Source of the DNA: Rhodobacter maris
GTDB taxonomy: Bacteria; Pseudomonadota; Alphaproteobacteria; Rhodobacterales; Rhodobacteraceae
Reading direction: 5' to 3'
DNA: 64,000 nt
Assembly: GCF_900217815.1 (NCBI RefSeq)
Contig: NZ_OBMT01000002.1
Span: 62,001 to 126,000, forward strand
Below the pieces are notes generated by a model. It had not been told where the DNA came from. It saw only the letters and a program-made list of their open reading frames with translations, and ran no database searches. This document shows positions 34,819 through 38,563 of this stretch, one piece after another (within the stretch, counting starts at the first letter, position 1; each line of letters starts with the position of its first letter). The position numbers and the translations under genes were made by a program.

Positions 34819-35121
34819 ATGTCGGAGAAGACGCTGACCAGAATGGACCTGAGCGAAGCGGTGTTCCGCGAAGTGGGTCTGAGCCGCAACGAATCTGCAC
34901 AGCTTGTCGAAAGCGTGCTGCAACATATGTCTGATGCGCTGGTGCGCGGTGAGACGGTGAAGATCTCGTCCTTCGGCACCTTTTCGGTGCGTGACAAGGC
35001 TTCGCGCATGGGCCGCAACCCGAAAACCGGCGAGGAAGTGCCCATTTCACCTCGCCGGGTGCTGTCGTTCCGGCCCTCGCATCTGATGAAGGACCGCGTC
35101 GCCGAGGGCAACGCACACTGA
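34819..35121 (+). CDS. ihfA: Integration host factor subunit alpha
   Basis: The 100-residue DNA-bending protein begins [20 protein letters not shown] and has the HU/IHF core ([22 protein letters not shown]) with the intercalating proline region [15 protein letters not shown]. IhfA pairs with IhfB to bend DNA in replication, recombination and, in Rhodobacter, regulation of photosynthesis and hydrogenase genes. The ATG at 34819 follows GGGGGGAT; the frame extends further upstream without conservation. Confidence 0.96.
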
Positions 35122-35179: not shown

Positions 35180-38100
35180 ATGACGAAATCCGCCGAGGCC
35201 TTCCGCACGATCAGCGAAGTTTCCGAACTGCTGGACACGCCCACGCATGTCCTGCGGTTCTGGGAAACACGGTTTGCACAGATCAAGCCCGTCAAACGCG
35301 CTGGCGGGCGGCGTTATTACCGCCCCGCCGATGTCGCGCTGATCGCCGGGATCAAGGCGTTGCTGCAGCTCGAGGGTCTGGCGATCAAGGACGCACAGGC
35401 CGCGCTCAAATCCCGAGGCGTGAAGGCGATCACGGCGCTCGGCCGGGAGGTGCTTGAAGCGCCTGTCGCGCTCGCCCCGGAACCCGGTCCCGAGCCTGTG
35501 ATCGAGAGCCCTACCGAGACCGGTACAGAGGCAATCACCGCGCATGTGGTTCACCCTCTCGTCGCCCCCGCATCCGCTGACCACGAAGACCCCGAAACAA
35601 AAGAGATGCAGCCCCCGGACCTGCAACCGGAAGAGGGGGCAGCACAGGCTGCGGAAGCTGTTTCTGAGATTTCCGAAACTTTCGGGGCTTCAGAACTCAT
35701 TGCCGAAAGCCCTGAATCCGTGGCGACGGATGTCGCTGCACCGGAGCCGGAAGAGCCTCCCCCGGTTCCGGATGAATTGACCATCGTCGAAACATCTGCC
35801 CTCCCCGACACAGCCGGAGGTCTTCCGCCTCCCGGACCCGGGCCGGAGGAAATCGCATCGGACGAATCTGCGCCCGTCGCGCCGGAACCTGCCGCGCCGG
35901 AACTTGTCGCGCCGGAACCTGCAGCCCCCGCCCTCTGCGAAGACGCGTCCCCTGCCCCGCCCGCGGCACAATCCGACTTCCATCAGATCGCCTCCGGGCC
36001 GGTCGAGGCGCGCTCGATCGCCGCGGCGCAAGCCGCGCTTGAGCTGGCGCGCACCGAGGCCGAGGCCGTCCGCGCCGAGATCAAACGCCTGCGCGCCGCC
36101 GCCGATGCAATCCGTGCCGCCGCGGCGGCCAAGGCGGCGCTGTCTGTCCCCGCGCCCCCCGCCGAGGACGCCGAGGCCATAGGTGCCAAGGAGCCTGCTG
36201 CCCCGCCAGAACCCGAGCCTTCGGCAGAACCCGAGCTATCGGCCACGCCTGCTGGCGACGATGCGCCGCCCGAGGAAACCCGGCCGGACCTCATTCTGCC
36301 GGCCACGGAGGATCTGCCAGTCGATCCGTTTGGCTTCGAGGCGGCACTTTCGGAAATCGTCGCCGAAGCCGTAGCGGAAGCGCTTTTGGACGCAAGCCTC
36401 GGCCCGGAGGCGGCGCCCGCAAGCGAGACGGCCGAAGAGACCGTTGCACAGCTTGACACCGCGGCCCTTGCGGGGCCGCTCCAGACGACAGGTACAGAGA
36501 CCGGCGCTGAGACCGGACCCGCCTTTGAGGCGGACGAGGAAATTATCGATACGGCCTTTGATCTGGTTTTCGGACGCAAGCCGGAGGCGGAACCCGAACC
36601 GGAGGCGCAGCCCGAGCCGGAAGCAGAGCCCGAACCGGAAGCAGAGCCCGAGCCGGAGGCGGAGCCAGAACCGGAAGCGCAGCCCGAACCGGAAGCGCAG
36701 CCCGAACCGGAGGCGCAGCCCGAACCGGAAGTGGAGCCCGAACCGGAAGCGCAGCCCGAACCGGAGGCGGAGCCCGAACCGGAAGCGCAGCCCGAACCGG
36801 AAGCGCAGCCCGAACCGGAAGCGCAGCCCGAACCGGAAGCGCAGCCCGAACCGGAAGCAGAGCCCGAACCGGAAGCAGAGCCCGAACCGGAAGCAGAGCC
36901 CGAACCGGAAGCAGAGCCCGAACCGGAAGCAGAGCCCGAACCGGAGGCGCAGCCCGAACCGGAGGCGCAGCCCGAACCGGAAGCAGAGCCCGAATCGGAA
37001 GTGGAGCCCGAACCGGAAGCGGAGCCTGAACCGGAAGCGCAGCCCGAACCGGAGGCGCAGCTCGAACCGGAAGCAGAGCCCGAACCGGAGGCGCAGCCCG
37101 AACCGGAGGCGCAGCCCGAACCGGAGGCGCAGCCCGAACCGGAAGTGGAGCCCGAACCGGAAGCGCAGCCCGAGCCGGAGGCGCAGCCCGAGCCGGAGGC
37201 GCAGCCCGAGCCGGAGGCGCAACCCGAGCCGGAGGCGCAGCCCGAACCGGAAGCGGAGCCCGAACCGGAAGCAGAGCCCGAACCGGAAGCAGAGCCCGAA
37301 CCGGAGGCGCAGCCCGAACCGGAAGCGCAGCCCGAACCGGAGGCGGAGCCCGAGCGGGGCGACATTGCCGCGCTCGTTTTTGCCCGGCACCGCCCCACGA
37401 CCTTCGATCGCCCGGAAGAAGCTCCCGCGCCGGAGCTGGTGTTCCGTCGCACCGCGCCCCCCGCACTGGAAACGCCCGAGCCGCTCCTCCCCGCGGCGAC
37501 GGACACGGAGGCTTTGCCGGTCGCGGAGATCGAAGCAGACCCCGCCCCCGTCACCCCGACAGAGCAGGCGGTCGCAGCGCAGACCATCGGGGCGGAACCC
37601 GAAGCGGTTCCCGAACCTGAGCCGGAAGCAGAGCCCGAGCCGGACCCCACGCCGCCGCTCTTGGTCGAGGACAGCGCCTACTCCTTCATCGCCCCGCGCG
37701 GGCCGCGCCGCAAATCCGCACCGCCCCCCGAGGCCACGACCCCGCCGGTTGCCGCGGTGCAGGAATGGTACCAGCCCTCGCTGTTTGAGTTGATGGCCCT
37801 GCCCGAACCGGAACCGGAGCCGGCCCCCACGCCCGAGCCCCTGCCCGCGCCGGAACCTGAAATCCCGCAGGAACCTGAAATCTTGCCGCAACCGGTGCCG
37901 GACCTTCCGCCCCCGGAAGCACCGCAGGAATGGCCGGAACAGGTAGAGCCCGCTGAACCCGAGTGGCCCGGACACGAAGAGCCAGTGCCGGAACAACCTC
38001 TTCCGGAAGAACCTGTTCCCGAAGAACCTGTTCCGGAGGCGCCAGAACCCGACGATCCGGGCCCCGAGATCCCCGACGCAGAGCCGGAGCCAGGGCCGGA

Positions 38101-38395
38101 AGACTGGCCCGAGCTCGCGGCGCCCCGCGCCGCGCCGCCCGCGCTCGATCCGCTCGAGCGGATGGTGAGCCTCATTCTGAGCGGCGCCGCGCCGCTCAGC
38201 CAGGAACTCCCCGTGGCCGGGCAGATCGATCCGAGCGTGAACCCGCTCGGCGCGCTCAAGGAAGGGCTTGCGCTCTTTGCCCCGGTCGCGCTTTCGCCGA
38301 TCGAACGGATGCGGCTTCTCTCCTCGCATGACCGGCTCATGGCGCTTCAGGCACGGCTGGCCCAGCCGCCGCGCCCACCGCCCGCACGGCGCTGA
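35180..38395 (+). CDS. MerR-type HTH protein with giant Pro/Glu repeat region
   Basis: The 1071-residue protein starts with an intact MerR-like helix-turn-helix (residues about 8-80: [44 protein letters not shown]). The rest is acidic and proline-rich. Residues 471-722 are 42 tandem hexapeptides [E/Q]PEPE[A/V] (separate entry), followed by further Pro/Glu segments ([18 protein letters not shown]) and a short conserved-looking tail ([18 protein letters not shown] ... [20 protein letters not shown]). A helical stretch at about 270-310 precedes the repeats. In Rhodobacterales a MerR-like gene normally follows ihfA; this one is far longer. No transmembrane segment is seen. Its DNA target is unknown. 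Confidence 0.85.
36590..37345 (+). repeat. 42 tandem 18-bp units encoding [EQ]PEPE[AV]
   Basis: The unit is 18 bp, typically CAGCCCGAACCGGAAGCG, coding for Gln/Glu-Pro-Glu-Pro-Glu-Ala. I count 42 complete copies in frame. Variation is confined to CAG/GAG at the first codon, GAA/GAG and GCA/GCG wobble, and few substitutions (three Ala to Val, one Pro to Ser, one Pro to Leu). Because the unit is a multiple of 3 without stops on either strand, all neighbouring frames stay open, which creates long false ORFs. Confidence 0.97.
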
Positions 38396-38485: not shown

Positions 38486-38563
38486 CGGGCCGTGGCGCAG
38501 CCTGGTTAGCGCGTCCGTCTGGGGGGCGGAAGGTCGTGAGTTCGAATCTCACCGGCCCGACCA
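38486..38563 (+). tRNA. tRNA-Pro (anticodon GGG)
   Basis: The 78-nt gene folds with acceptor CGGGCCG/CGGCCCG, D arm GCGC/GCGC, anticodon stem TCCGT/GCGGA with loop CTGGGGG (anticodon GGG), and T arm GTGAG/CTCAC with loop TTCGAAT. The discriminator is A and the CCA is encoded. It reads CCC/CCU proline codons. It lies between the MerR-like gene and dcd. Confidence 0.95.

Follow-up and report, generated by a model that had tools for sequence, protein, structure and literature searches.

A MerR-type protein encoded next to ihfA in Rhodobacter maris, with a 42-unit acidic array and a candidate clamp-docking peptide

What a DNA-binding protein might do with 42 tandem copies of an acidic, proline-rich hexapeptide is the question raised by a gene of Rhodobacter maris that follows ihfA and encodes a MerR-like protein of 1071 amino acids (aa). 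We examined this gene within a stretch of 64,000 nucleotides (hereafter the window; NCBI RefSeq assembly GCF_900217815.1, contig NZ_OBMT01000002.1, positions 62,001 to 126,000 of the forward strand), in whose coordinates all positions below are given, and an original prediction, made from the letters of the window alone, had singled out the array. The reading that we favor, at a probability of roughly 45%, is that this ihfA-linked MerR-type protein is a RacA-like chromosomal tether with an adjustable acidic spacer and a candidate clamp-docking peptide. The repeat, though striking, can be understood as the expansion of a spacer in one species; the part worth testing is the conserved ihfA-linked MerR-like protein, with its fast-evolving acidic spacer and recurrent clamp-like peptide.

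The array and its reading frame

The gene and its array occupy the following positions:

35180..38395, forward strand: the whole MerR-like gene, an open reading frame (ORF) of 1071 aa
36590..37345, forward strand: the array, 42 units of 18 bp, residues 471-722, encoding [E/Q]PEPE[A/V], with a net charge of -103 and no Pro-Pro

Tandem Repeats Finder (TRF) places the array at 36581-37353 with a period of 18, 42.9 copies, 90% matches, and a score of 1105, which rules out its origin by chance, while the other eight TRF rows of the window score only 52-82. The 42 in-frame units that had been counted at 36590-37345 are borne out both by TRF and by an in-register count. At the DNA level these units are of 16 distinct types, and at the peptide level of five (QPEPEA 20, EPEPEA 18, QPEPEV 2, EPESEV 1, and QLEPEA 1). 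They differ from the consensus unit at 61 places, 37 of them synonymous and 24 replacement, where 12 synonymous and 39 replacement single changes are possible, and the replacements consist of 19 Q/E changes at one site, 3 A>V, 1 P>L, and 1 P>S, such that the earlier description of the changes as almost all synonymous or E/Q swaps is true of 56 of the 61. Identical units also lie side by side, with 9 adjacent identical pairs versus 3.38 in permuted order (58 of 20,000 permutations reach 9) and a mean difference between neighboring units of 1.66 bases versus 2.05 permuted, in support of local duplication of the units. As judged from the letters of the units, these differences and local duplicates form the pattern expected of unit duplication in a translated frame, and we infer that the array grew by slippage or unequal exchange of the 18-bp unit.

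With a unit of 18 bp, divisible by three, the array has several open frames. Variation among the units falls mainly on third positions of the MerR frame (summed 0.88, versus 0.48 and 0.10 at the other two, with 0.45 of the 0.48 due to the E/Q site), and this frame joins a conserved head to a conserved tail; for these two reasons we took it as coding, and a wrong reading frame for the array was discarded. The unit length also bears on whether the array might be a contingency locus, whose copy number varies between cells and so switches the protein. Locally duplicated units would suit such a locus, but 18-bp units never shift the frame, such that gain or loss of a unit cannot switch the gene off; phase switching through the array was hence discarded, and we regard a contingency locus as highly improbable.

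The copy number of 42 was taken from one assembly of 57 contigs, and the assembly of a related genome (G014) breaks in the same spacer with a run of unknown residues, both of which would fit a count that is an artefact of assembly, with a true array that is longer or shorter. Against such an artefact, the units differ enough that the longest exact repeat within the array is 85 bp, so that long k-mers could have resolved it, and we consider a wrong copy number quite improbable.

Array-like sequence was also sought in the rest of the genome, where the second-best site falls within the same gene and the third within the acidic N-terminal part of FtsY (L270:857-2506, contig C16; TIGR00064). That region is EPEPE-rich, and such stretches are thus not confined to the MerR-like gene. 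A Pfam match to Trypan_PARP (24.8 bits against a cut-off of 100) was discarded as low-complexity resemblance. Alternation of proline with a charged residue, as in the array, is also a feature of the Glu-Pro/Lys-Pro spacer of TonB, an unrelated periplasmic energy transducer.

Constant ends and a changing acidic spacer

Around the array, the protein has a head, a long helix, a tail, and a series of short conserved anchors (where G001 is the closest relative, and G016, G002, G004, and G014 are other close relatives):

35180..35464, forward strand: winged-helix MerR-type DNA-binding head, residues 1-95 (Pfam MerR_1 and models)
35999..36142, forward strand: predicted 48-residue coiled-coil-like helix, residues 274-321 (predicted local distance difference test score, pLDDT, 87-93 by block over 281-320; anchor pattern in 6/6 close rows)
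36329..36397, forward strand: conserved 23-residue block (anchor pattern in the window and G001)
36542..36577, forward strand: conserved 12-residue anchor containing the FDLVFGR region, just before the array (window, G001, G014)
37370..37387, forward strand: anchor ALVFAR, just after the array (window, G001)
37436..37450, forward strand: anchor LVFRR (window, G001)
37676..37699, forward strand: anchor AYSFIAPR (window, G001, G016, G002, G004)
38144..38392, forward strand: conserved C-terminal tail, with predicted helices at residues 991-1000, 1022-1033, and 1040-1061

The MerR-like head that had been predicted matches Pfam MerR_1 over residues 10-77 (E 1.5e-18, 67.1 bits versus a cut-off of 21.6). 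A model of a 238-aa orthologue, built from 63 rows, is confident in the head (residues 1-90, block pLDDT 84-98) and in the helical tail (H195-201 and H209-232, 85-95), with an unstructured stretch between them (47-71). The model of the window protein, built from five rows only, has a mean pLDDT of 45.7, with 42-92 in the head, 59-80 in the tail helices, and no secondary structure in the array (block pLDDT 31-45), which the original prediction had pictured as a stiff rod. The array and spacer are hence predicted to be disordered; low pLDDT from five rows would be weak by itself, and the composition points the same way. The wing is followed by helices H69-79 and H81-86 in the orthologue model and H69-79 and H81-97 in that of the window protein. 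MerR family regulators have a long dimerization helix after the wing and act on the promoter by DNA distortion. When the orthologue model was searched against the PDB by fold, the heads of CarH, SoxR, RacA, BldC, and GlnR were among the best matches, and the head very probably binds DNA. The tail had been described as short, helical, and conserved, and it is indeed helical in the models and 72-86% identical over the last 85 aa in four complete close orthologues.

Orthologues are widespread, as the head was matched in 17 of 18 genus, 146 of 150 family, and 95 of 115 class genomes (the genome of R. maris counted in each), and once per matching genome in the class (E up to 1e-10). In the genus, L102, L109, and L112 were left out, the other 14 of the 17 matching rows being complete. 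The family survey covers mostly one genome per genus; 142 loci were fetched and 140 were complete, with G000 and G006 already covered and without G123 and G130, whose contigs end beside the match. For the class, the reading covered 29 of the 94 further matches.

The 140 complete family orthologues come almost entirely from different genera and span 115-1021 aa with a median of 263.5, and the 1071 aa of the window protein exceed them all. Long proteins are found again among its close relatives, where the five complete rows measure 682-1126 aa (G001 1126, the window 1071, and the others 871, 757, and 682), while the remaining complete genus orthologues have 238-453 aa. The array, which the original prediction had called unusual, was found by TRF (score of at least 120) in none of 156 other orthologous coding sequences, and G001 is longer than the window protein yet lacks it; hence, the array is new, whereas giant size also occurs without it. 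Outside the genus, one orthologue (L230, in G082) reaches 1021 aa and is Ala/Pro/Asp-rich, without tandem repeats at a TRF score of at least 120. Two genus rows are disturbed, with unknown bases inside Ala-Glu dipeptide repeats and a frame that differs on either side in L102 (G014), whose length was not used, and an Arg/Pro-rich frame after about residue 130 in L109 (G017), probably from a frameshift or sequencing error.

The long helix, a 12-residue anchor, QxSLF, and the LSPIER part of the tail occur in the same order in the window, G001, G016, G002, and G004, and G001 additionally has a 12-residue anchor, LVFxR, and VFRR in common with the window. Between FDLVFGR and LVFxR lie 264 aa in the window, with the array, versus 169 aa in G001, without it, at net charges per residue of -0.40 and -0.30, respectively. 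Among the roles that had been proposed for the array, that of a spacer is the best fit to this interval, acidic in both species. Other spacers bear repeats of their own, namely units of 105 bp in G002 (7.8 copies) and G004 (4.2 copies), runs of 6 bp next to an assembly gap in G014, and, in other rows, TRF units of 6 bp (L106, L252), 39 bp (L187), and 15 bp (L200), while G001 and G016 have no spacer repeats at a TRF score of at least 120. Charge varies far less, with whole-linker values of -0.20 to -0.27 per residue in five intact close rows and, across the family, net charges below -0.05 per residue in 119 of 126 linkers (median -0.18); the window linker has 896 aa, -0.24 per residue, and 24% Pro. 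By these comparisons, we conclude that the spacer keeps its composition, its charge, and possibly its length, but not its sequence; these orthologues habitually retain a head and a short helical tail and vary the stretch that joins them. That the array is slippage-driven spacer growth is, in our judgment, very probable.

Taken as a whole, the original prediction stands as to head, tail, ihfA position, array uniqueness, local duplication, and spacer, while it overlooked the long acidic spacers of relatives. Beyond what it described, some of these spacers carry unrelated repeats, G001 is longer without the array, and the spacer has short conserved motifs, one of them resembling a clamp motif.

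A spacer of this kind recalls PopZ of Caulobacter, whose spacer has a net charge per residue of -0.28 and 29% Pro, and in which spacer length tunes the material state and charge matters (PMC9512792). The two spacers would be alike in being acidic, Pro-rich, and disordered, with similar charge density (-0.24 and Pro 0.24 here). The protein could then be a PopZ-like condensate or polar-hub protein, in which the tail oligomerizes, the acidic Pro-rich spacer sets fluidity, the head brings DNA, and the repeat number tunes the spacer, and the composition of the 896-aa linker and the predicted C-terminal helices would suit such a role. However, the window protein differs from PopZ in its DNA-binding head, it has no PopZ family match in Pfam or NCBIfam up to E 1, its linker exceeds severalfold the length of the PopZ linker variants (40 and 156) named in that study, and oligomerization of the tail is assumed; we consider this role improbable.

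The gene lies between ihfA and a tRNA gene:

34819..35121, forward strand: ihfA (integration host factor alpha subunit, a nucleoid protein), upstream gene (TIGR00987, 168.5 bits versus a cut-off of 120.25)
38486..38563, forward strand: tRNA-Pro(GGG), downstream gene (ARAGORN)

In the window, 58 bp separate the end of ihfA from the start of the MerR-like gene. The expectation that MerR-like genes follow ihfA holds throughout the family, as all 142 fetched loci have ihfA upstream and on the same strand, 140 with a gap of 0-400 bases and two overlapping by one base, and an ihfA match was also found within each of the 29 class loci read, a count of presence only, irrespective of position relative to the MerR-like gene. 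The tRNA-Pro(GGG) gene is present at 15 of 16 genus loci, the contig ending in the sixteenth, and since it is kept whatever the repeats, its place after a proline-rich gene is probably a coincidence. In G003, a genus genome of two contigs, no close fabH, ihfA, or MerR-like match was found, which suggests a missing stretch rather than gene loss and was not counted as loss.

A recurrent clamp-like peptide

Within the spacer, past the array, lies a peptide that resembles the motif by which known proteins bind the replication clamp:

37772..37786, forward strand: QPSLF (residues 865-869), a candidate peptide for binding the sliding clamp DnaN, located where block pLDDT is 48

The bacterial clamp motif is given as QL(S/D)LF (PMC9690074) or QL[S/D]LF, with QLGLF in Pol II and QLNLF in UmuC and with serine at 34% and aspartate at 23% of central positions (PMC3716654). 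QPSLF thus has in common with these peptides the pattern of Gln, Ser/Asp, Leu/Met, and Phe, and the DnaE of the same genome (TIGR00594, 1141 bits) carries QVSLFGE. Such a peptide would sit here in a host protein that, unlike these known clamp binders, is neither a polymerase nor a repair enzyme, and its second position varies.

Recurrence was assessed in three sets (a dot or x standing for any residue): the complete genus orthologues, a nearer set, and the family linkers (n = 136, i.e., 135 complete orthologues of more than 150 aa and the window). For the nearer set, the best 80 of 396 loci were taken; the set had 97 rows, 90 of them distinct and 85 after dropping L102, L109, L112, L075, and L064, which are broken or cut. 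The pattern Q-x-S-[LF]-F is present in 12 of the 14 complete genus orthologues, and Q.[SD][LMF]F in 23 of the 85 nearer rows versus 0.13 shuffled (maximum 3 in 2000 rounds), although such letter-shuffle expectations ignore the relatedness of rows, which counts against reading too much into them; fifteen altered control patterns occur only 0-2 times in these rows. Across family linkers, Q..[LM]F is found in 20 of 136 versus 0.92 expected and in none of the 136 when reversed. The 52 [LM]F pairs have Q at -3 in 20 cases versus 1.7 expected (about twelvefold), while the seven other Q offsets from 1 to 8 give counts of 0, 1, 2, or 5, and Q..LF itself, at 18 of 136 versus 0.84 shuffled, stands out among 39 single-letter variants at its first or last place. 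The central residue of the 20 family motifs, which include QFDLF, QLGLF, QGNLF, QTDLF, and QPDLF, is S in 4, D in 4, and N in 3, and the strict motif occurs in 7 of 140 family rows versus 0.23 expected.

Several observations weigh against a docking peptide. QPSLF has Pro at position 2, where the consensus has Leu, and within the genus this position is Pro, Gly, Ala, or Thr. Two of the 14 complete genus orthologues lack Q-x-S-[LF]-F, the strict motif reaches only 7 of 140 family rows, a number equaled by the control Q.[SD][LMF]P, and Q..LP, like Q..LF, occurs in 18 of 136 linkers, although 7.76 of these are expected, Leu-Pro being common. Isolated occurrences of Q..[LM]F are not unusual, with 4 in the 42 long ORFs of the window (19,484 aa), QPSLF included. 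Neither the second DnaE-like ORF of the genome nor the neighboring 497-aa ORF was seen to contain the pattern. Q..[LM]F is missing in 116 of the 136 family linkers and in all 29 class orthologues read, where only QLSLL and QEDLL were listed, and clamp docking therefore cannot be the core function of the family. On a weakly supported tree, the motif requires 20 changes (shuffled mean 26.9, with 0 of 500 as low); it is clustered on the tree, with frequent gain or loss as is usual for short motifs, and probably does not represent the ancestral function. Judged on its letters and recurrence, docking of QPSLF on the DnaN clamp has, we think, an even chance, and another partner with a similar motif is possible for QxSLF.

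Two other motifs recur in the family linkers (e.g., L193 and L209), LP.F in 34 of 136 versus 2.9 shuffled, often as LPSFLxR, and VV.F in 28 of 136 versus 1.25 shuffled, often as VVPF.

A putative tether or an ordinary regulator

By sequence and fold, the head is like those of MerR-type winged helix-turn-helix (wHTH) proteins (MerR_1; CarH, MlrA, HspR, and GlnR), while the protein differs from them in an acidic spacer that runs to hundreds of residues and is predicted to lack structure, in a separate helical tail, and in the absence of any C-terminal effector domain from its Pfam and NCBIfam matches up to E 1. Some MerR proteins are also without an effector domain, such as HiNmlR, judging by its PDB title. 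The protein might be a transcription regulator of the ordinary MerR type, its tail degenerate, its array neutral slippage under little constraint, and its QxSLF meant for another partner or none. The matches of the head to MerR_1 and to the CarH, SoxR, and GlnR folds speak for this, as do the unrelated repeat units that arise in the same spacer of several relatives, the nearest species without the array, and the many family linkers (116 of 136) that lack the motif. Less easily accommodated are the missing effector domain, a spacer whose charge and A/E/P content stay alike despite sequence change, a tail 72-86% identical among close species, and the 20 glutamines at -3 of [LM]F pairs where 1.7 are expected. 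We regard an ordinary regulator as rather unlikely.

MerR-type heads also serve chromosome anchoring, positioning, and segregation, namely in RacA of Bacillus subtilis and RocS of Streptococcus pneumoniae (PMC11500499). Going by models, the window protein would share with them a MerR-type wHTH head, a central coiled-coil-like helix, and a disordered region; the order of parts differs, a disordered stretch here also preceding the helix, and no polar or membrane anchor is known here, no anchor search having been made. The likeness is further weakened by the PDB searches, in which RacA is not among the sequence matches of the MerR-like protein up to E 0.1, and no fold match of the orthologue model reaches E 0.001. 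As an analogy, the protein resembles RacA, RocS, and PopZ in outline, while membership in none of these is supported by sequence.

Under the tether reading, the head would bind chromosomal DNA sites, the long helix and tail would join protein copies together, and QPSLF would dock on the sliding clamp DnaN, bridging the DNA sites to the replication clamp. A long acidic arm would carry the peptide to DnaN, its charge preventing contact of the arm with DNA; the whole protein has a net charge of -210 and its first 95 residues +6. The 42-unit array would be this species' way of lengthening and charging the spacer, its 18-bp unit gained by slippage or unequal exchange with the reading frame kept open. 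Whether the protein is a tether rather than a classical, ligand-sensing regulator we judge to be evenly balanced, and only tentatively do we suggest that a conserved alphaproteobacterial ihfA-linked protein has turned clamp-docked tether in the Rhodobacter lineage, with a spacer length evolving fast by repeat expansion. No function for the ihfA-linked MerR-like protein was found in the titles or abstract openings of the papers listed by literature searches, which mostly did not cover subscription journals.

If the clamp motif is real, it would link a MerR-type DNA-binding protein to the replisome, and the protein would then, we think, be a clamp client of a new kind. Further, a fast-changing spacer between constant ends offers a natural series in which the length and charge of a disordered linker can be set against function.

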